Below are positions 1-20,958 of a stretch of 21,359 bases of DNA, one piece after another. Numbering within the stretch: the stretch's first letter is position 1; every line of letters begins with the position of its first letter. The position numbers and the translations under genes are program-made. This DNA comes from a virus, in the IMG/VR virus record IMGVR_UViG_3300022602_000485, positions 1 to 21,359 of that record. One strand, written 5' to 3'. The notes under the pieces are model-generated. The model saw only the letters and a program-made list of their open reading frames with translations, searched no databases and was not told where the DNA came from.

Positions 1-143
1 GGTTGTAAATCGGCTACATCCGGAGCCGTTTTAGCAATTTGCACCGTAGGCGAATTTGCAGTAAATTTAGCCGGCGCTGGTTCAATGGTGACATTAGAAT
101 CACCTAGGAATTTTAGTCCAGGGACTTCAATATCATCAGCCAT
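1..143 (-). CDS. Unidentified protein, N-terminal part only (runs off the window)
   Basis: An open frame starts with ATG at 143 and continues to the window edge, giving about 47 residues that begin MADDIEVPGLKFLG. The start codon shares a base with the stop of the preceding gene (TAATG), the same coupling seen throughout this operon, which supports the start. The visible part is rich in Ala, Pro and Thr and shows no signal peptide or membrane segment. Being directly downstream of two probable virion or ejection proteins, it may be another virion component, but that is inferred from position only. The 3' end is missing, so length and function cannot be judged. Confidence 0.7.
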   Translation of the reverse strand, partial: MADDIEVPGLKFLGDSNVTIEPAPAKFTANSPTVQIAKTAPDVADLQ

Positions 144-1570
144 TATCTAAACTTTCCTTGCTCTAAAGCATGAAGATTTGACCATTTACGGTTGAAATCT
201 TCACGTTGATCTTTAGGAATAGTAGCGTAAATTTCGTTTGCTTTAGTTTTTGCTTCAGGCGAATTAGAAGCGGCTAAAGCATCAATTTGGGCCATACGAA
301 CGTCATAGTTACTAACCCAAGCAGATTTAAGTTTTTCTGCTTGAATGTAACCATTGACACCACGTTTTTCAATAAGCTTGTTGTATGCGCTATTAAACAT
401 AGTAGCGGCCTTAACCGTAGCATCTGCACGTGAAGCAATATCAGCTAATGCTTCTTCGGTTAAATCAGAACTTCCATTAATGGTTTTTTTAATTTCACGT
501 GAAGCATCTGTATTAGCAGTTCCCATAACATCAGAAGCGGCCGCCATACGTTCAATATTTTTATCAAGTTTTTCTTTTTCGGCATTTCCAATAAGCCATT
601 TTCCACCCTGACGAACATATTGCCCTGGACGACTACCACGTGTTGCAGAAATATTTTCCATAACTCCACGTGTATTGGCTTCTTGTTCTTTAGCGGCAGA
701 AGCGATTGCATTGCTTTCTTGTAATAATTTTTTACCATTAGCTAAAGCATCTTTTTGTTCATCTGTGTAATTAGCAAGGGCTGGATTGCCTTTGTAATCA
801 AGATATTGGTCATACTTAATAAGGTCACGGTCTTTAGCGCTTGGTTTAGACGCTTCAGTTGTGCCACCACCACCAACGGCACTTTGACCGCCACCAAATT
901 CAGTAGGCGTAATAATAGGTTGACGTCCTTCAACTGAAGGTTGTGTAACCGTTGCACGACTAGCACCACCAATTGTTTGTACTCCAGCTTTAGGTGCAAA
1001 TGCAGTTTGTTGTTCCGGCAATGTCATCATTTGATTAGATGAACGCATTGCTTGTTGCCATTGATGGTCGCCAGGACCAGCTAACATTACGTTACCCATT
1101 TTGGCTTCTGCCATTTTAATAATGTCAGGATTGTTTTTATATTGCGTTGCAATAGTTTTGTAAGCATCAATATAAGCTTTAGGGTCTGTTACTTTTGCTT
1201 GACCTAATGCACCATCAACTTGTGCAAAAACCATACGTTCTTTGTCAGTCAAGCCCATTTTGGCGCTTTGAATAGCAGTTTGATTAGTTGCTAATGTTTG
1301 TAACTTTTCAAGATGTTTTGGACCAGTTAAAGGTGCAACGGCCATCAATGCTGGCGCAACTTTATCAGGGTCAAGCTTTCCGTCAGTTGTGTAATTATCA
1401 GTATTAGAAAGCAAATTACGAACAGGGCCAAGTTCTTTTAGTTCTTGTTGCGCTTGATTAGCTTGGACACGGGCAATAGAAGCTTCGGCCGAATACAAGC
1501 CCATTTTCATCATGTCCCCAAGGGACATAGCATTGGATTTTGGATTTAAGTCCGCAGAAAATTCAGCCAT
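143..1570 (-). CDS. 475-residue probable internal virion / ejection-associated protein
   Basis: I do not recognise a named family. The protein begins MAEFSADLNPKSN and is Ala-, Gln- and Lys-rich and mostly helical in character, with a likely coiled-coil stretch near residues 25-45 (Ala/Gln/Glu-rich) and a Gly-rich linker near 225-240. No transmembrane segment or catalytic motif is visible. Its first 30 or so residues closely resemble those of the 74-residue protein at 20958-20734, including an S-L-G-D motif after the shared MAEF start. It sits directly after the probable DNA-ejection protein and ends in a TAATG overlap with the next gene. In P22-like phages the genes after the tail accessory proteins encode ejection proteins, so that is the best guess; the basis is position plus composition. 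The ATG at 1570 has only a weak Shine-Dalgarno, so coupling to the upstream stop is likely. Confidence 0.85.
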   Translation of the reverse strand: MAEFSADLNPKSNAMSLGDMMKMGLYSAEASIARVQANQAQQELKELGPVRNLLSNTDNYTTDGKLDPDKVAPALMAVAPLTGPKHLEKLQTLATNQTAIQSAKMGLTDKERMVFAQVDGALGQAKVTDPKAYIDAYKTIATQYKNNPDIIKMAEAKMGNVMLAGPGDHQWQQAMRSSNQMMTLPEQQTAFAPKAGVQTIGGASRATVTQPSVEGRQPIITPTEFGGGQSAVGGGGTTEASKPSAKDRDLIKYDQYLDYKGNPALANYTDEQKDALANGKKLLQESNAIASAAKEQEANTRGVMENISATRGSRPGQYVRQGGKWLIGNAEKEKLDKNIERMAAASDVMGTANTDASREIKKTINGSSDLTEEALADIASRADATVKAATMFNSAYNKLIEKRGVNGYIQAEKLKSAWVSNYDVRMAQIDALAASNSPEAKTKANEIYATIPKDQREDFNRKWSNLHALEQGKFR

Positions 1571-1574
1571 AGTA

Positions 1575-2276
1575 TTAACCCATTTTGTTCATGCCATACA
1601 ACATAGCATAATTACTTATATTATTTAAACTGCCAGTAATTGCATTTGATTGGCCCATTGTTCCAGCCGCTTGTGCATTTCCAATACTTGAAAGCATATT
1701 AGATACATTAGAAGCAGTTCCAGTTCCAGCATTTGATACTGTACCAAGGGCGTTCATACCTACGTTATTAGCATTAAATATGTTACTGGCAACGTTTTGA
1801 CGGTTTGCTTGATAATCACTATATGCAGTTTGTAATGCGTTTCCAGCATAATTTTGAGCAAATTGTTGACCACCTTGAATAGCATTTCCACTTACTGCGC
1901 CACCACCAGCATTTAAACCAGCATTAAATTGACCCATGCCTTGCGTTAATCCAAATTGATAATTTGGCATCAAAGTAGTCAAATCATTCATTGTTGGCTG
2001 GGCAGTTAAATAACCGCTACCAGTTTGTATTTTTCCATTGGCATCGGTATATTGGCCAGGCAACATTGCATTTAAACCATAATTGGCTTGTGTGCCGGTA
2101 TTCATATATGGTTGAGCCATATTTTTAATATCGTTGTAAATACCGGAACTGTAATTAATACCTTGATTTGCGGCATTAGCATATTGACCAGCGGCACTTT
2201 GCGCGGCATTGCCACCAATAACCGAACTTGCTACGCTTGATGCGGCGACTGCGGCCGCTACCCATCCCATTGGCAT
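1575..2276 (-). CDS. Probable DNA-ejection (injection) protein, P22 gp7-like in character
   Basis: The 233-residue protein starts MPMGWVAAAVAASS. This ATG at 2276 is preferred over the longer open frame because AAGGA lies about 8 bases upstream and the previous gene ends at TAATC just before it. Residues 4-30 form an Ala/Ser/Gly-rich hydrophobic segment (small-residue helix, possibly membrane-inserting). The rest is dominated by Ala, Asn, Gly and Gln with repeated N-A/G patterns. This composition and position (after gp10-like and before a large helical protein) is typical of the small ejection proteins of P22-like phages, which leave the capsid with the DNA and help form a channel through the cell envelope. 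The match is to the type, not to a proven homologue. The alternative is a generic low-complexity virion protein. Confidence 0.8.
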   Translation of the reverse strand: MPMGWVAAAVAASSVASSVIGGNAAQSAAGQYANAANQGINYSSGIYNDIKNMAQPYMNTGTQANYGLNAMLPGQYTDANGKIQTGSGYLTAQPTMNDLTTLMPNYQFGLTQGMGQFNAGLNAGGGAVSGNAIQGGQQFAQNYAGNALQTAYSDYQANRQNVASNIFNANNVGMNALGTVSNAGTGTASNVSNMLSSIGNAQAAGTMGQSNAITGSLNNISNYAMLYGMNKMG

Positions 2277-2278
2277 GA

Positions 2279-2899
2279 TTAATTCCTTCTTTCTAAATGT
2301 TTGTCCATAGTCCAACCTTCAGGTGAAAACGGAGTTCTATAACCATTATCTAATCTAATACAAATAGTCAAAATAATATGGTCGGTATCGCCTTCATTAA
2401 TTACCCAATGGGGTACGGTATTACAAAACCAATGTACATCACCGGCTTTTTGAATCATTTTTTCGTTTTCATAACAAAAAGCGGCTTTTGAATTGCTTTC
2501 AAGGCAAATATTGTATTTTTCAAACGTTTCAGCGTGCCAACCTTGGTCAACATGAGAATGAATTTTTTCCCCTGGTCGCAAACGATAAAGCAAAACACCG
2601 CCAAGCATTTCGCCACCAACTATTGCCATTAAGTCTAATGCAAGCTTTTTCGCATACGGAAGATGGTCAATAGCTTTGTACCAAACAGGAATGTGTTCAT
2701 CACTAAAATCACTAAAGTCGCCTGTTTCAAAATTCTTTGTTTCGTCTTTGTATCGCAAAAATATGTCGGATGTTTCATAATGCGGACCACGTTTTGATAG
2801 TCTGCATGGGTTTTTATTCCACAAAAATGGCTGGCGTTGTAAATCCATTACTAATGGAAATACATTAACGTTGGCGGCCAATTGGGTAAAATTGTTCAT
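2279..2899 (-). CDS. Aspartyl/asparaginyl beta-hydroxylase-like 2-oxoglutarate/Fe(II) oxygenase
   Basis: The 206-residue protein carries the double-stranded beta-helix signature of the Asp/Asn beta-hydroxylase family. There is an R-x-G-E-K-I-H-S-H-V-D stretch at 108-118 (H116 and D118 as likely iron ligands). A second motif, N-T-V-P-H-W-V-I-N at 160-168, supplies H164 as the distal ligand, and R182 after a beta strand is positioned to bind 2-oxoglutarate. Family members hydroxylate protein Asp/Asn side chains or, in bacteria, small molecules; the substrate here is unknown. The N-terminal 70 residues look like an extra cap domain. It overlaps the cupin gene by ATGA, so the two are probably translated together, and it is followed by virion protein genes. 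It could modify a virion protein or a host target, but nothing in the sequence settles that. Confidence 0.85.
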   Translation of the reverse strand: MNNFTQLAANVNVFPLVMDLQRQPFLWNKNPCRLSKRGPHYETSDIFLRYKDETKNFETGDFSDFSDEHIPVWYKAIDHLPYAKKLALDLMAIVGGEMLGGVLLYRLRPGEKIHSHVDQGWHAETFEKYNICLESNSKAAFCYENEKMIQKAGDVHWFCNTVPHWVINEGDTDHIILTICIRLDNGYRTPFSPEGWTMDKHLERRN

Positions 2900-3243
2900 T
2901 TTTCTATCAAAACTTCATCAATTTTAGTAATATCAGTTTCTTCTGTTGCATGAATACAAAACCATGTAGCATCTTCCAATGCTTCAATGGTGTGATTAAT
3001 TCCAGCTTTCATATCAATGCAAGCCGGTGCCGTATATTCCTTATTATATTCGTCAGTACGTACAATTACACGTCCTTTTGACAAAATACTTAAATGGGAA
3101 TATTCATGTTTGTGCATCCCAGCGGCATACCCTTTTGGTATGTGCATTTCTTTTGCATAAAGGCCATCTGAAAAATGATGTTGGGTCCCCAAATCAATTT
3201 CAAAAATACCTTCATTTTGCTGAAATTGTTCACTAGGTTTCAT
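2896..3243 (-). CDS. Small single-domain cupin protein
   Basis: This 115-residue protein matches the cupin fold: a first motif G-x5-H-K-H-x3-H-x6-G (G38, H44, H46, H50, G57) and a second motif around A-G-I-N-H (H84). In the classical first motif the fourth ligand region carries Glu; here His50 stands in that place, giving a four-His metal site if it folds as expected. Cupins of this size range from enzymes (isomerases, dioxygenases) to sugar- or metal-binding proteins, and the substrate cannot be inferred. The gene starts in an ATGA overlap with the small gene before it and ends in an ATGA overlap with the oxygenase gene. Both partners are beta-barrel metal proteins, which suggests a joint role. 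Confidence 0.82.
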   Translation of the reverse strand: MKPSEQFQQNEGIFEIDLGTQHHFSDGLYAKEMHIPKGYAAGMHKHEYSHLSILSKGRVIVRTDEYNKEYTAPACIDMKAGINHTIEALEDATWFCIHATEETDITKIDEVLIEK

Positions 3244-3482
3244 GGGTTGTAATAAGGCACTTTCATTGGTTTACCGTTAACAACAATATTAATAAATCCG
3301 GCTGGTGCTGAAGGCAATGTTTGATTTCCAGCGGTAGCCGTTGTAGCTGAAGTAAAGTTTAATATATTTAACAAATACTGTTGCCAAACCCTAGTTGGCC
3401 TATTTGTTTTTTGGTCCAAAAACTCCGATTGTGGGTACGGATTATTTTGGGTGCTTGCGTAAATACCTTGATTATTGGCCAT
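3240..3482 (-). CDS. Small virion-associated protein of unknown function (80 residues)
   Basis: The gene begins at the ATG of a TAATG overlap with the gp10-like gene and ends in an ATGA overlap with the cupin gene, so it is firmly embedded in the operon. The protein has an Asn/Gln-rich N-terminus (MANNQGIYAST), a central T-R-V-W-Q-Q-Y-L-L segment that looks like a short amphipathic helix, and a C-terminal beta-like stretch with I-N-I-V-V-N-G-K. Small proteins of this pattern occur beside tail genes in many phages, where their role is not established. No catalytic or membrane features are visible. A minor tail component or adaptor is the likeliest guess, from position only. Confidence 0.8.
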   Translation of the reverse strand: MANNQGIYASTQNNPYPQSEFLDQKTNRPTRVWQQYLLNILNFTSATTATAGNQTLPSAPAGFINIVVNGKPMKVPYYNP

Positions 3483-5677
3483 TAGTTTGCTCCAGCACTA
3501 GCTTTAAGGTTAGCGGCAATAATTACCGGATTAATAGGGTCTGTAACCACTACTTCAAATATACGGTCACGCGCCCAACCCATTCTTCGCCAAATAGCAC
3601 GGTTTTTATATGCGCCTTGTTGGCCAATAGAAACCCAATGTTCTTGGGACCATGTAGAACCGCCATCATCTGACCAACGCAACATGGCTTGTGGATTGGC
3701 ACCGGTAGTAATAAGGCTTGATACACCAGCAATGGCAATACCAGCAATAGCAGTCCCGGCTACGGCATTTCCTGTTACTTGTGAAGAAGTAATGTTTCCT
3801 TCTAATCCAACACCAGGCTGAAAATAAATTTGCAATTCATCAAAATACTGACGTTGGTAATCGCTAACTAAATGTGGGGCGCGGCGTAAACGGCGTATTT
3901 CATTGCCATTGTCTGTGTAATTTAATGGGTCTAACTGATAAATTTGTCCATTAGCATAATCGCCAACCAAATTCATATTTTGGAAATTGGCATGGCAATT
4001 AGAACGATGACGATGAAAAACGTTGTTTGAATCAACAGAAAGCCATTTATGCCACATATTTGTGGACATATCGTAAACCCAAGTTAAATCTAAAGTTGGG
4101 AATGAAAGAACATAACATTCATGGCCTTCCATTTGATAGGTATAGGCCACGGCATCTTCAACGTATTGGTCAACTAAAGTGTTTTCTACGGCATGGGTGC
4201 TAATACGGGTTGGCACATAGCCATTCATCATCATTACTTGGGATTGGCCGCGAATATTACGACTTAAATAAGCAAATGAATTGCCTACTCTTGATACTGA
4301 AAATTTAGCCACAATACCGTGTTGGGTTGATGTTCCTGGAATACGCTGAAATGGAAACGGAAATAAACCAGCATCAATCCACACTTCAGAAGAAGCTTCA
4401 CCAAGTAAATAAACTTCACGATGGTCAACAATAACTGAAACCAAATTATCGGGCGCGCCATCTTTAGAACTAAAGTTTAATTGATTAGAAATTGGTGAAA
4501 GAAGGTTGGAACAACCCCATTGTTGGGTTCCAGGACGGTTATAAACAAAATAGTTATCAACAATGTCAACAACATCCGCACCACTAAAAGCGCCATCGCT
4601 AAACGGCAGAACACTAAAGTTAAGCGCATATAGACTTTCTGAACCAACAGTTTGTGAAGTGCTAACAACATAAGAACCAGTACCGCCAGTACCAGTACCA
4701 AATGTTAATGTTAGGGTTAACCCTGTACCATTTCCGCTAGTTGTGGTTGGTGCTGGTGTGCCAGGATTTACTGTATAAACACCATAATTGACTACGGTCA
4801 ATCCTGTAACTGCGCCGCTTCCACCAATTGAAGCTACTGTATATGTAGCTTGTTGACTGTATATACCGCCAGTAACCGTAATCGTGTCGCCAATCGCATA
4901 ACCGGTACCAGCCGCAGTAATGCTATAAGAAAGCGCCGCAGAGCCGCCTAAAGCCGTAATAATCGTTCCGGCAGTTACGCCAGTACCTTGAATGGTTTGT
5001 CCTGGATATAAAGTACCGCTAGATACTGCGCTTACAGTTAAAACCGTGCCGGAAATTGAACCAGTAATTTTAGCGGCAACTGCAGAAGAATTGAATACTT
5101 CTGATGGTTCGGTTTGGCTAATATTGACGTTGTAAGTTCCTACGCCGCCGGTACCACTTCCAAAGCTAGTAATAATGGTTTCAGCAGTAACGCCAATACC
5201 AAATAATTGTTGTCCGGCCGCAATTGTGCCTGATTTCATTAAAGTAACTGTTAGAATTGTACCTGATACAGAACCTACAAATTGAGCAGAAGATGGATTA
5301 GATATACGCCATGTATAACGATAAGTGCCATCTGTTATGTAAACGTTTTGGCCATTATCAGTAATTCCTACGATTCCAGTAGAAGTATTAAGATTTCCAA
5401 CAATAGTAGGCGTTAATGATGAATTAACTACATAAACATAACTGCCGCATACTATAACCATATATTGACCGCCTGATACAGTACGCATACCGCGTACTTC
5501 AGCGTTATTTAAAGTCAATACGTTTGTTAAACCTGGTGTCGGATATAAAGCAATCACCCCGTTTTGACCAGGTTGTTTTAATGGGTCAATTTCAGGGCGA
5601 AAGTTAATACATTCCTGTGCATCTTGATAGATGGACGGCGCTTCGTAAGAAGGTCCAATGAATCCAAAATCAGGCAT
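3482..5677 (-). CDS. P22 gp10-like packaged-DNA stabilisation / tail hub protein with inserted beta-repeat modules
   Basis: The 731-residue protein starts MPDFGFIGPSYEAPSIYQ. The ATG at 5677 overlaps the previous stop (TAATG), and the 21 residues before it in the longer open frame are spurious. The N-terminal S-x-x-Q-x-C-I-N-F-R-P region with Y-P-T-P-G-L at 45-50, and the later beta-propeller-like middle, are typical of phage stabilisation proteins of the P22 gp10 type. Those proteins sit beneath the portal and gp4 and help close the tail after packaging. P22 gp10 is about 470 residues; most of the excess here is an insertion at about 134-345 made of Gly/Thr/Ser-rich repeats. Recognisable gp10-like sequence resumes after it (D-N-Y-F-V-Y-N, then W-I-D-A-G). 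It lies three genes after the gp4-like gene, as expected for tail completion. Confidence 0.85.
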   Translation of the reverse strand: MPDFGFIGPSYEAPSIYQDAQECINFRPEIDPLKQPGQNGVIALYPTPGLTNVLTLNNAEVRGMRTVSGGQYMVIVCGSYVYVVNSSLTPTIVGNLNTSTGIVGITDNGQNVYITDGTYRYTWRISNPSSAQFVGSVSGTILTVTLMKSGTIAAGQQLFGIGVTAETIITSFGSGTGGVGTYNVNISQTEPSEVFNSSAVAAKITGSISGTVLTVSAVSSGTLYPGQTIQGTGVTAGTIITALGGSAALSYSITAAGTGYAIGDTITVTGGIYSQQATYTVASIGGSGAVTGLTVVNYGVYTVNPGTPAPTTTSGNGTGLTLTLTFGTGTGGTGSYVVSTSQTVGSESLYALNFSVLPFSDGAFSGADVVDIVDNYFVYNRPGTQQWGCSNLLSPISNQLNFSSKDGAPDNLVSVIVDHREVYLLGEASSEVWIDAGLFPFPFQRIPGTSTQHGIVAKFSVSRVGNSFAYLSRNIRGQSQVMMMNGYVPTRISTHAVENTLVDQYVEDAVAYTYQMEGHECYVLSFPTLDLTWVYDMSTNMWHKWLSVDSNNVFHRHRSNCHANFQNMNLVGDYANGQIYQLDPLNYTDNGNEIRRLRRAPHLVSDYQRQYFDELQIYFQPGVGLEGNITSSQVTGNAVAGTAIAGIAIAGVSSLITTGANPQAMLRWSDDGGSTWSQEHWVSIGQQGAYKNRAIWRRMGWARDRIFEVVVTDPINPVIIAANLKASAGAN
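4646..5068 (-). repeat. Beta-repeat module, copy 2, split by another module
   Basis: Residues 204-344 of the gp10-like protein begin like copy 1 (I-T-G-S-I-S-G-T-V-L-T-V ... T-A-G-T-I-I-T-A-L-G-G) and finish with its ending (G-T-G-T-G-G-T-G-S-Y-V-V-S-T-S-Q-T-V). About 80 residues of a different sequence (nucleotides 4942-4700) sit between the two halves. Confidence 0.75.
4700..4942 (-). repeat. Second Gly/Thr-rich module nested inside copy 2
   Basis: Residues 246-326 contain S-I-T-A-A-G-T-G-Y-A-I-G-D-T-I-T-V-T-G-G and V-T-G-L-T-V-V-N-Y-G-V-Y-T-V-N-P, a beta-rich pattern common in phage tail proteins. It interrupts the beta-repeat between its I-T-A-L-G and G-T-G-T-G-G elements, which suggests a later insertion. 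Confidence 0.65.
5111..5278 (-). repeat. Beta-repeat module, copy 1 (within gp10-like gene)
   Basis: Residues 134-189 of the gp10-like protein read G-S-V-S-G-T-I-L-T-V-T ... G-V-T-A-E-T-I-I-T-S-F-G-S-G-T-G-G-V-G-T-Y-N-V-N-I-S-Q-T. The same pattern recurs at 5068-4646 and at 7066-6884, so this is a transferable module of about 56-60 residues. Confidence 0.8.
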
Positions 5678-6324
5678 TATCTTAACTCTGCCCAAACTTG
5701 CAACGTTGGTGTGCCAGTAGTTACAACTTGATAACGGCAATTTGCTTGAACAATAGCAGTTAAATTTGATGTAATGTTTGTTGATCCTGCATCTAAAGCA
5801 ACTGTTTGATAAGAACCGCTTCCAGCATTTGTTTCTACTTGCAATCTTGCAGAAGTTCCAGCCAATGTTGTAACAGTTACATTAACCATAATTGGGTAAC
5901 CAGCACTATTAGTATATACAGTATTGTATGCCCTAGATGGAGTTCCCCAAGCTTGAACACCTGTACCCAAACCAGATGCATAATTTTGAACTGAAGCATT
6001 GGCAAAAGTCAAAGTATTGCCAATAGTTAAATTTGTTAAATTTGATGTTCCAGTAATATACAAAGAATTTGCACTTAAAGCTGTTCCTTGCAAAGTTGTA
6101 AATTTACCGGTATTTGGTGTGCTTGACCCAATTGCGCCTGGTGAAACTAAACTATTATTTACAAGATTTGTAAAACCAGCACCAGTTGCAGTACCGTTTA
6201 CTACTAAATTTTGTGTAGTAAAAGTATTGGCTTGCAATACGCCGTTATATACAGCATTATTGACGTCATTTAGCCATGCCGCATAAATTACGGTTGAATT
6301 GTCAACAAAGTTAGTAGAAGCCAT
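5677..6324 (-). CDS. Tail fibre- or needle-like beta-rich protein (215 residues)
   Basis: The start MASTNFVDNSTVIYAAWLNDV at 6324 is chosen because AGGAAAATT precedes it and the previous gene stops at TAG just upstream; the longer frame has no such signal. The N-terminal F-V-D-N-S-T-V-I-Y-A-A-W-L-N-D-V-N segment (residues 6-22) is a recurrent opening in phage tail proteins. A P-G-A-I-G-S-S-T-P-N-T-G-K-F-T-T-L motif in the middle also occurs in the long fibre of this window (P-I-G-A-T-T-P-S-T-G-A-F). The C-terminal 90 residues are a compact beta domain. Placed between the gp4-like and gp10-like genes, it is probably a trimeric tail appendage; P22 has its needle protein gp26 in this neighbourhood, but no direct similarity to gp26 can be claimed. 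Confidence 0.78.
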   Translation of the reverse strand: MASTNFVDNSTVIYAAWLNDVNNAVYNGVLQANTFTTQNLVVNGTATGAGFTNLVNNSLVSPGAIGSSTPNTGKFTTLQGTALSANSLYITGTSNLTNLTIGNTLTFANASVQNYASGLGTGVQAWGTPSRAYNTVYTNSAGYPIMVNVTVTTLAGTSARLQVETNAGSGSYQTVALDAGSTNITSNLTAIVQANCRYQVVTTGTPTLQVWAELR

Positions 6325-6331
6325 AATTTTC

Positions 6332-7303
6332 CTATCGTAAGAATCCACCGGTCAAAATCCAACCGGCATCTTTTTGGCGACCAACCAACAACGCATCACT
6401 AAATACAGAAGCTTGAATTGGTCGCATATTTGTGCGTTTTAAGGTTGCTTTTGCTTGTGCGGCATATTTTGTAATCAAAGCCATTGTTGCTGGGTCATTT
6501 TTGCCGTACATCGGCATTAAACGTTCAGCAAGACACCAGCGCAAACATAATTCATAACCTTGTGGCAAAACAATTGGGTCATAAATGGTGTTATAACGGG
6601 TAAACAATGTATCAGCAAATATGTGCATTTCGCCCTGTGAAGGGTTTGGCCATACATAAACGTTACCCAATGGGTCAGAAGGTTGGTAATACATTGCTTT
6701 TGGCCAAGGACCGGCTAAAGTCTTTAAGCCAATCATTTCATAATTTTCAAGATTGAGTACGGCAACTGGGTAGTCAAGGCCCCCGTTAACAATAGGAGTA
6801 CCGTTAGAATTAGTGTTAATCCTAACAAAGCTAGACTGAATAGCAAGAGGGCGCTGGTAATAGCCATTAATGGATGTTGAACTAACCGTCTGAGCAATGT
6901 TGACCAAATATGTGCCAGCTTCCGTAACGTTTGTACCGGCGCCTGAACCAAACGCAGTAATAACTGTTCCATTTGAAATTCCTGTTCCGGCCAAAGATTG
7001 ACCCAATGTAATCGCGCCCGATGATATTCCAGTTACAGTTAATACGTTTCCGCTAATAGAACCAGTAAAATTAGCGCCAATAGTGCCGCCAGGGCCAATA
7101 GTGTATTGAATTTGACCTGGGGTAATCGGAAATACAATTTCAGTTTTATAACTGACCATCATGGATTCGTTTGACCATTGGTCAACCATGCCATTCATCA
7201 TTTGAAAAGCATCTGCGGCCGCTTCTGCGGTAGGTGTTTCGCCACCAGCTAATGCGCCAATATCTTTTAATGCACCGCTAATAATGTCGTATGGTGTTGG
7301 CAT
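6332..7303 (-). CDS. P22 gp4-like head-to-tail adaptor (tail accessory factor) with inserted beta-repeat
   Basis: The 323-residue protein starts MPTPYDIISGALKDIGAL and continues with a D-A-F-Q-M-M-N-G-M-V-D-Q-W segment, the helical start typical of gp4-type tail accessory factors, which form the ring under the portal. The C-terminal part (about 180-300), with L-P-Q-G-Y-E-L-C-L-R-W-C-L-A and a basic A-K-A-T-L-K-R-T-N helix, also fits. P22 gp4 is 166 residues; the excess is mainly a Gly/Thr/Ser-rich insertion at about 80-140 (nucleotides 7066-6884) sharing the repeat of the gp10-like protein. The gene follows the fibre block rather than the coat gene directly. The ATG at 7303 lies close behind the previous stop (7305). 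Confidence 0.85.
   Translation of the reverse strand: MPTPYDIISGALKDIGALAGGETPTAEAAADAFQMMNGMVDQWSNESMMVSYKTEIVFPITPGQIQYTIGPGGTIGANFTGSISGNVLTVTGISSGAITLGQSLAGTGISNGTVITAFGSGAGTNVTEAGTYLVNIAQTVSSTSINGYYQRPLAIQSSFVRINTNSNGTPIVNGGLDYPVAVLNLENYEMIGLKTLAGPWPKAMYYQPSDPLGNVYVWPNPSQGEMHIFADTLFTRYNTIYDPIVLPQGYELCLRWCLAERLMPMYGKNDPATMALITKYAAQAKATLKRTNMRPIQASVFSDALLVGRQKDAGWILTGGFLR
6884..7066 (-). repeat. Beta-repeat module, copy 3 (within gp4-like gene)
   Basis: Residues 80-140 of the gp4-like protein read T-G-S-I-S-G-N-V-L-T-V-T ... G-T-V-I-T-A-F-G-S-G-A-G, then G-T-Y-L-V-N-I-A-Q-T-V. This is the same module as the two copies in the gp10-like gene. Confidence 0.8.
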
Positions 7304-20031: not shown

Positions 20032-20343
20032 TTACTTTTTCTTTGCAGTCTTAGCAGATTGTTTAAAAGCTTCAGCAGTTGGTGCGCCTTTACTACCAGG
20101 CTTTCGCATTTTTTCTACTGGCTTGCCTTCTGCCTTTTCTTTTGCAATACGTTCTTGCTTTTTATGGATATTGGCATAAAGTCCGGGTTTAGTAGCCATT
20201 TTAGGTTCCTTTGTCGTTGCTTTTTTTAAGGTTGGGCGCTTTTTTGGTTTTTCAACTGGAAAACTAGGCGTTGGTTCATCAAACGTAAAAATATATCTTG
20301 ATTTCTTTTTGGGTTTAAACCAGTTCAGTATTTTTTTCAGCAT
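20032..20343 (-). CDS. Basic protein with an internal second start (103 or 55 residues)
   Basis: The long frame (MLKKILNWFKPKKK...) begins at 20343 inside the end of the GroES-like gene with GGAAGAAG before it. The last 55 residues, from ATG 20199 (MATKPGLYANIHKKQERIA...M-R-K-P-G-S-K-G-A-P-T), correspond to a small phage protein of conserved type that usually stands alone. AAAGGA lies about 8 bases before this internal ATG. Both starts therefore look usable, giving either a fusion with an extra Lys/Pro-rich N-terminal arm or two nested products. The protein is strongly basic throughout, so nucleic acid binding is likely (inference). Function is unknown. Confidence 0.78.
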   Translation of the reverse strand: MLKKILNWFKPKKKSRYIFTFDEPTPSFPVEKPKKRPTLKKATTKEPKMATKPGLYANIHKKQERIAKEKAEGKPVEKMRKPGSKGAPTAEAFKQSAKTAKKK

Positions 20344-20665
20344 AATCTTCTTCCGTTAAGAAACATACGTCTTGCCAGGACATAATAAGATAACGTTCAC
20401 CGTAAGTAAAGTATTCTTGAAATTTAAGATATTCATCTTGGGCGTTTTTACTCATAGTTCCAAATCGAACATGGTCGCCAACATTAACTGGCATGGCTTC
20501 ACGGCGCCCATTAGGTAGCTTTTTGCCCGGTCCTACGGCTACTACAACGCCCATATTGTCTGCTTCTTTGTTTTCAACAATGATTACAGAACTTAAAATG
20601 CGTTTATCAGGGCGTACAACGATTTTGTCGCCCATTGGTTTTAATATAAAATCTACATCAGCCAT
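20315..20665 (-). CDS. groES: GroES-like co-chaperonin (116 residues)
   Basis: The sequence aligns with the Cpn10 fold: L-K-P-M-G-D-K-I-V-V-R at 8-18, a candidate mobile loop containing I-I-V at 28-30 (position of the GroEL-contacting I-V-L in E. coli GroES), V-V-A-V-G-P-G-K at 41-48, N-V-G-D-H-V-R-F-G at 61-69, and Y-L-I-M-S at 92-96. It is about 20 residues longer than E. coli GroES, with an insertion near 70-85 and a longer acidic C-terminus. Phage GroES relatives (T4 gp31, RB49 CocO) replace host GroES to fold the coat protein. P22-type coat folding depends on GroEL/ES, so that role fits here. AAGGAG gives one of the strongest ribosome binding sites in the window. Confidence 0.9.
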   Translation of the reverse strand: MADVDFILKPMGDKIVVRPDKRILSSVIIVENKEADNMGVVVAVGPGKKLPNGRREAMPVNVGDHVRFGTMSKNAQDEYLKFQEYFTYGERYLIMSWQDVCFLTEEDYAEKNTELV

Positions 20666-20733: not shown

Positions 20734-20958
20734 TTAATCTGCGTAATAATTTGGGTCTGTTGGTGCTTGATTGCCTGAACCAGCGGTAAATGGAATGTCT
20801 TGGCCGCTTTGCATTGGCTTATCACTCCAAGGCGTTGCTTTAGTTTTTTGAACTTGGCTTGCCCGTTTTGCATCTTTTAAATAGGCGTTGGTTTTTAATA
20901 AATCCCCCAAACTACTTTGATTAGATGGGGGGTTTAAATTGGCAGTAAACTCAGCCAT
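20734..20958 (-). CDS. Small protein sharing the N-terminus of the 475-residue protein (74 residues)
   Basis: The protein starts MAEFTANLNPPSNQSSLGDL and its first 30 or so residues closely match those of the gene at 1570-143 (MAEFSADLNPKSNAMSLGDM). After that it is polar and Pro/Gln/Asp-rich with no domain in sight. The gene begins two bases after the previous stop (TAATCATG) and is followed by a hairpin. The shared segment may be a binding or targeting signal, for example for incorporation into the capsid, which would make both virion proteins; this is inference. Alternatively the short gene may be the remnant of a duplicated larger one. Confidence 0.78.
   Translation of the reverse strand: MAEFTANLNPPSNQSSLGDLLKTNAYLKDAKRASQVQKTKATPWSDKPMQSGQDIPFTAGSGNQAPTDPNYYAD

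Follow-up and report, generated by a model that had tools for sequence, protein, structure and literature searches.

The analyzed stretch of DNA (the window, 21,359 nt) is a viral record that carries the structural module of a P22-like podovirus on its minus strand. The genes of this module are arranged in the order GroES-like, terminase, P22-type portal, scaffold, P22-type coat, tail genes, adaptor, gp10-like closure protein, 80-aa gene, cupin, hydroxylase-like gene, gp7-like ejection protein, and 475-aa gene. The portal matched the P22 type with an E-value of 1e-175, and the terminase, scaffold, and GroES-like genes were named from sequence. The cupin gene and its product are designated CUP, and the PF05118 hydroxylase-like gene and its product HYD. 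The main features are as follows.

143..1570, minus strand: 475-aa gene that takes the position of gp20, an ejection protein, in P22 (assigned by position only; no family match)
1575..2276, minus strand: P22 gp7-like DNA-ejection protein (phrog_598), directly downstream of HYD
2279..2899, minus strand: HYD, Asp/Asn beta-hydroxylase-like protein, 206 aa, with H116, D118, H164, and His174
2896..3243, minus strand: CUP, cupin, 115 aa, with the four His residues H44/H46/H50/H84 (HxHx3H, fourth His 34 residues on)
3240..3482, minus strand: 80-aa tail gene, directly upstream of CUP, at the position occupied in P22 by the gene 26 needle
3482..5740, minus strand: gp10-like head closure/nozzle protein (phrog_578 Hc3)
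20315-20665: gene for a GroES-like co-chaperonin (identified from its sequence), located upstream of the terminase

A preliminary description of this DNA had placed two overlapping genes between tail and ejection genes. Both open reading frames were found at the coordinates listed above with a 4-nt overlap (ATGA stop/start), and Pfam and PHROG matches identified their neighbors as tail and ejection proteins. The 80-aa gene, which is the usual upstream neighbor of CUP in close relatives, likewise overlaps CUP by 4 nt of the ATGA type, and the gp7-like ejection gene starts 2 nt after HYD. In comparisons with three relatives, dN/dS was 0.10, 0.10, and 0.14 for HYD and 0.07, 0.05, and 0.10 for CUP. 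Both genes are under purifying selection (dN/dS of about 0.1).

Two other features of the module were observed. A 74-aa open reading frame at 20734-20958, at the opposite end of the record, shares 51% identity with the N-terminus of the 475-aa gene (143-1570) and resembles a partial duplicate of it. A beta-rich stretch of approximately 70 aa is common to the adaptor (6332-7303) and the gp10-like protein (3482-5740), and it matched the same PHROGs in both, 38233 (tail fiber) and 21413. We regard this stretch as an insert common to these two distinct virion proteins.

Conserved residues and structural models

HYD matched the Asp_Arg_Hydrox family of Pfam (PF05118) with 31.3 bits against a cut-off of 22.6, and 42 of the 44 aligned HYD members matched PF05118 at E <= 0.001. 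H116, D118, H164, and N168 were retained in 88/88 relatives; the first three had been described previously as intact ligands, and they are intact throughout this set. HYD is predicted to possess a two-His-one-carboxylate iron site (HxD...H). Both iron-site His residues are common to HYD, the Asp/Asn beta-hydroxylase family (PF05118: AspH, LpxO), and proline hydroxylases (4p7w, 1e5r). AspH is not known to have the iron-site Asp, whereas HYD has the full HxD...H pattern. HYD further differs from AspH, LpxO, and the proline hydroxylases in its size (approximately 190-206 aa), in its location in phage virion operons, and, in the clade of the window, in the absence of the Arg located 10 residues after the second His.

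R182 had been listed among the ligand residues of HYD. Its identity as the Arg that binds 2-oxoglutarate (2OG) was not sustained because R182 follows the second His by 18 residues, whereas the canonical Arg lies at +10. The position of R182 is usually basic (Arg in 66 and Lys in 15 of the 88 relatives). In profile alignments, the 2OG-binding Arg is found at +10 in proline 3-hydroxylase and cis-4-hydroxylase, and R735, also at +10, is the equivalent 2OG Arg of AspH. The corresponding residue of HYD in the window is His174. Among the 88 relatives, 68 have Arg at this position, 11 have His, and 6 have Met; the starred tree clade of the window comprises 11 rows, and each of them has His. Several rows of the window's HYD clade also share a C-terminal extension of about 25 aa. 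The HYD of the window lacks the Arg expected of an AspH/proline-hydroxylase-type 2OG/Fe(II) oxygenase. Since His174 occupies the canonical Arg position, the use of 2OG by HYD in this clade is uncertain. For the whole family, we consider oxygenase activity of HYD likely, in agreement with the earlier designation. The designation is weakened for the clade of the window, in which His replaces the 2OG Arg and activity is only somewhat favored.

The preliminary description had called for structure prediction, which yielded confident models for CUP (pLDDT 83) and HYD (pLDDT 93.6, pTM 0.88) with AlphaFold. In profile searches against the PDB, the closest matches to HYD from one alignment (A1) were L-proline cis-4-hydroxylase (E 1e-6) and proline 3-hydroxylase (3e-5). 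A larger alignment (A8) placed a small cupin enzyme first, followed by proline hydroxylases (E 0.001-0.008) and AspH (0.03). Since the top matches of these alignments differ, the exact position of HYD in the double-stranded beta-helix superfamily is not well defined.

CUP matched Cupin_2 of Pfam with an E-value of 6e-5 but did not reach the Cupin_2 cut-off. Its proposed ligands, also described earlier as intact, were each kept in at least 116 of the 118 unique relatives (H44 in 117, H46 in 118, H50 in 118, and H84 in 116), and C96 was retained in 115/118. The CUP model resembled HP0902 (Z 12.6), TcmJ (12.3), KdgF (12.2), DddK (11.9), a cellulose oxidative enzyme (11.4), and TM1459 (11.2) in the PDB. 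The fold matches of the model, the four conserved His residues, and the sub-cut-off Cupin_2 profile assign CUP to the cupin superfamily. CUP and Thermotoga TM1459 are each a single small cupin barrel with four His residues (Z 11.2 over 89 residues). The spacing of His52 to His58 in TM1459, taken from the titles of its structure mutants, equals that of H44 to H50 in CUP, and the HxHx3H pattern is found in both. However, the two proteins share only about 10% identity, and CUP sits in a phage slot.

CUP also matched PHROG 12032, a podophage short tail fiber family (E 2e-22), and database entries for the CUP family (PHROG 12032, 24280) carry the names "tail fiber adhesin" and "short tail fiber protein." Podophage cupins annotated in this manner (Vibrio VPMS1, Thalassomonas BA3, and Dickeya Amaethon) are homologous to CUP. 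In VPMS1 and P26218, the cupin directly precedes an annotated DNA-ejection gene. We did not find experimental support for the fiber label of the podophage cupins. Second, divergent cupin paralogues were observed upstream in the tail genes at L033:1212-1526 and L129:3336-3818, and the latter has lost two ligand His residues.

Distribution of the pair

Loci were the best 80 per query and are, thus, weighted to near relatives of the query; HYD clusters were defined at 70% identity and fetched with HYD queries alone. CUP adjoins or is fused to HYD in 24 of the 44 HYD clusters among the matches listed, in either order (15 HYD-CUP, 8 CUP-HYD, and 1 fused). The other 20 clusters among these matches have a sulfotransferase-like neighbor (9), a GNAT neighbor (4), no such neighbor (5), or a contig edge (2). 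In the genomes searched, no separate cupin was seen elsewhere in the CUP-less HYD genomes with a sulfotransferase-like or GNAT gene. The fused case (L067) is a natural 307-aa HYD-CUP protein in which both Pfam domains scored above their cut-offs. Overlaps between CUP and HYD are short as a rule, most commonly 4 or 13 nt, in both orders.

The query pattern matched only 8 HYD loci in a collection of bacterial genomes covering 84,980 species. CUP was adjacent in 7 of them, in both orders and before or next to a gp7-like gene. The hosts of the 8 loci were Paraburkholderia, Cupriavidus, Undibacterium, Rhodanobacteraceae, Acidisoma, and a Flavobacteriales MAG. Prophages with the pair are present in Paraburkholderia tropica LMG 22274 and Cupriavidus basilensis KF708, whereas an isolated phage with both genes was not found. 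In the HYD-CUP prophage group, the ejection genes are followed by an ATP-grasp (GARS-like) protein gene (L073:10861-12279).

The preliminary description had suggested a survey of co-occurrence and had treated CUP and HYD as a pair. The survey was positive, and the recurrent adjacency in both orders, the natural fusion, and the prophage copies support a functional pairing. CUP and HYD are very probably functionally coupled, and the coupling is well supported because of this recurrent adjacency, the L067 fusion, the paired bacterial loci, and the short overlaps.

Cupins lacking HYD are common. Among the matches listed, HYD accompanied 24 of the 113 four-His cupins from the cupin queries and was absent near 52 of the 63 from the window-type query. 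Since most cupin phages near the window carry no HYD, CUP is expected to have a role without HYD.

The homologous cupins of VPMS1, Amaethon, H4/4, P26218, and SnaP-R1 occupy the same slot; unlike CUP, they have lost at least one of the four metal His residues and are not accompanied by HYD. Among the 233 unique cupins with full flanks in the matches listed, HYD adjoined 79 of the 168 with four His residues and 0 of the 65 others; all four His residues were thus present in 79/79 HYD-adjacent cupins. A correlation between HYD and the four-His site was considered (Fisher p 1e-5 for CUP-query loci among the matches listed) and rejected: ligand state shows only one change on the cupin tree, a single evolutionary contrast, and the link is, therefore, not independent evidence. 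The presence of HYD requires at least 18 changes on the best cupin tree, all inside the four-His part, although many forks are weakly supported and only 2 of these changes are required when starred branches alone are considered. SET is a domain typical of protein methyltransferases. In rare cases, a ligand-lost slot cupin is fused to a SET domain that lies on one or the other side of the cupin (L258:2141-2920, L264:145-927, L255:2201-2875, and L183:4390-5265); the cupin-SET fusion of P26218 is weakly supported.

Genomic slot

The cupin of cupin-only phages is flanked by the gp7-like gene on one side and by a small tail or needle-like gene on the other. In a T7-like Sphaerotilus phage, its neighbors are the tail tubular B gene and, on the other side, a short gene located ahead of an internal virion protein. 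The slot of CUP and HYD, after the nozzle/needle and before the first ejection gene, is that of gene 14 in P22 and gene 13 in T7. Pfam describes T7 gp13 as a probable scaffold protein. P22 gp14 and T7 gp13 matched only their own Pfam families, and Pfam and profile searches did not detect homology of either protein to CUP, HYD, or the GNAT alternative. DUF2824, the P22 gp14 family, was not found in 20 related records. Since homology between the slot genes was not detectable, a shared function is only a suggestion.

Other genes occur at this position in cupin-less phages. A protein of approximately 165 aa with the P-loop-like motif GLPRSRTxW precedes HYD (L101:5487-5990, L046:5550-6014, L060:5514-6011, and 8 more). 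We considered this slot gene (F16) as a true sulfotransferase; it has the motif and sub-threshold Pfam matches only, and we retained the term sulfotransferase-like. A GNAT-like gene follows HYD at L003:8601-9065, L004:8609-9058, L096:6558-7019, and L105:4169-4621. Its candidacy as a homologue of P22 gp14 or T7 gp13 was rejected because no profile signal was obtained.

Discussion

The best explanation of the present results, which we hold tentatively, is a coupled metal-enzyme module that modifies a co-expressed virion or ejection protein. CUP and HYD, as predicted metal-binding beta-barrel proteins, would be produced late as one translationally coupled unit and cooperate during synthesis of the podovirus tail and ejection proteins. 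HYD, as a putative non-heme-iron oxygenase, would place a hydroxyl group on a side chain of a co-expressed virion protein, be it a tail-tip, nozzle, or ejection protein. CUP, as a metal cupin, would either act on the target of HYD or dock HYD onto it, and the two proteins may form a physical complex. A virion or ejection protein as the substrate of HYD is a reasonable possibility, somewhat short of probable. Hydroxylation of a virion or host protein, as suggested in the preliminary description, is thus a candidate function. The recurrence of the pair and its fusion, the fixed slot, purifying selection, and the four His residues of every HYD-adjacent cupin speak for a modification module, and the rare cupin-SET fusions in the sister clade, which join a cupin to a methyltransferase-type domain, speak for protein modification. 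Against the module stand the frequent occurrence of CUP without HYD, His174, the relatedness of HYD to hydroxylases of free amino acids, the single change in ligand state, and the lack of a tracking residue: a comparison of phages with and without HYD did not reveal a convincing hydroxylatable residue that tracked HYD in the 80-aa, gp7-like, gp10-like, gp20-like, or cupin proteins.

CUP and HYD may instead act late on a small molecule or a host surface component, such as a free amino acid, a sugar, or lipid A, with CUP as a sugar- or acid-transforming enzyme; for example, an envelope change may spare the loss of progeny to debris or exclude rivals. A small-molecule substrate remains a candidate because the nearest solved relatives of HYD include the free-proline hydroxylases. 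One HYD relative has a weak match to the lipid A hydroxylase LpxO, far below the cut-off. KdgF, TcmJ, DddK, and the cellulose oxidative enzyme are small-molecule or polysaccharide enzymes, and the last is also the closest PDB protein to CUP by sequence; however, fold likeness among small cupins says little on the substrate. We consider this reading rather unlikely given the strict placement in the virion operon beside the ejection gene across very different phages, and other metabolic genes were not seen in the module. It is also unlikely that CUP is a structural tail protein (a short tail fiber, needle tip, or adhesin) that HYD modifies or merely adjoins. The PHROG labels, the position of CUP after a needle-like gene, and the persistence of the ligand-lost clade in the same slot agree with a structural role, whereas the near-invariance of the four His residues and C96 in the clade of the window is unexpected for a mere adhesin, and a 115-aa single-domain cupin without a shaft is unlike a fiber. 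A similar cupin-type gene of Ralstonia phage phiAP1 bears the "short tail fiber" label without experimental validation (PMC8703784).

We regard as very unlikely a by-product of a permissive insertion slot, in which CUP and HYD do not cooperate. GNAT and sulfotransferase-like genes also occupy the slot and CUP is common without HYD, but the fusion, the start/stop overlaps in both orders, the pairing in 7 of the 8 bacterial loci, and the repeated changes in HYD presence within the four-His part of the best cupin tree, many forks of which are weak, oppose this view. HYD in the window's clade may have lost 2OG chemistry and become a binding protein or adopted another cosubstrate, as suggested by His174 in place of the canonical Arg in 11/11 clade rows and the C-terminal tail that several of them share. 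This appears doubtful since H116, D118, H164, and N168 are invariant, dN/dS is about 0.1, the His at position 174 is itself conserved, and the near-invariant basic residues K128 and R49 could participate. Returning to the modification module, we speculate, with considerable reserve, that the slot between the nozzle/needle and the first ejection protein is a dedicated podovirus protein-modification locus. A cupin paired with or fused to interchangeable enzymes (a 2OG-type hydroxylase or, rarely, SET), or a hydroxylase with a GNAT or sulfotransferase-like gene, would then mature the ejected proteins.

The ectoine operon encodes the GNAT EctA, the cupin EctC, and the 2OG hydroxylase EctD. Cupin and 2OG oxygenase genes adjoin in this operon as in the CUP-HYD pair, by analogy only; no aminotransferase was seen with CUP-HYD, and the metal ligands and the oxygenase family differ. 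Asp/Asn hydroxylase-like genes have been reported singly in Limnohabitans phage DC33 (PMC12195039), pelagimyophages (PMC7029224), and cyanophages (PMC3037559). A survey of jumbo phages described 2OG oxygenases with cupin-like proteins in a cyanophage cluster, in the context of capsule or metabolite chemistry (PMC7824862). We did not find a description of the CUP-HYD pair in the searchable open-licence literature, a search outside which most subscription papers fall, and the earlier statement that the pair matches no described phage system holds within this range.

Annotation usually treats phage oxygenases and cupins individually, as tail fibers or auxiliary metabolic genes. The presence in many short-tailed phages of CUP overlapping HYD just before the first ejection gene suggests a protein- or surface-modifying step in assembly. 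The pair and its natural fusion provide a concrete, testable subject for structural studies and mass spectrometry. If the proposed function is correct, part of the widespread "short tail fiber" family would be re-labelled as metal cupins, and a conserved unit of two enzymes linked to the ejection genes would suggest that enzymatic modification takes part in the assembly or infection of podoviruses.
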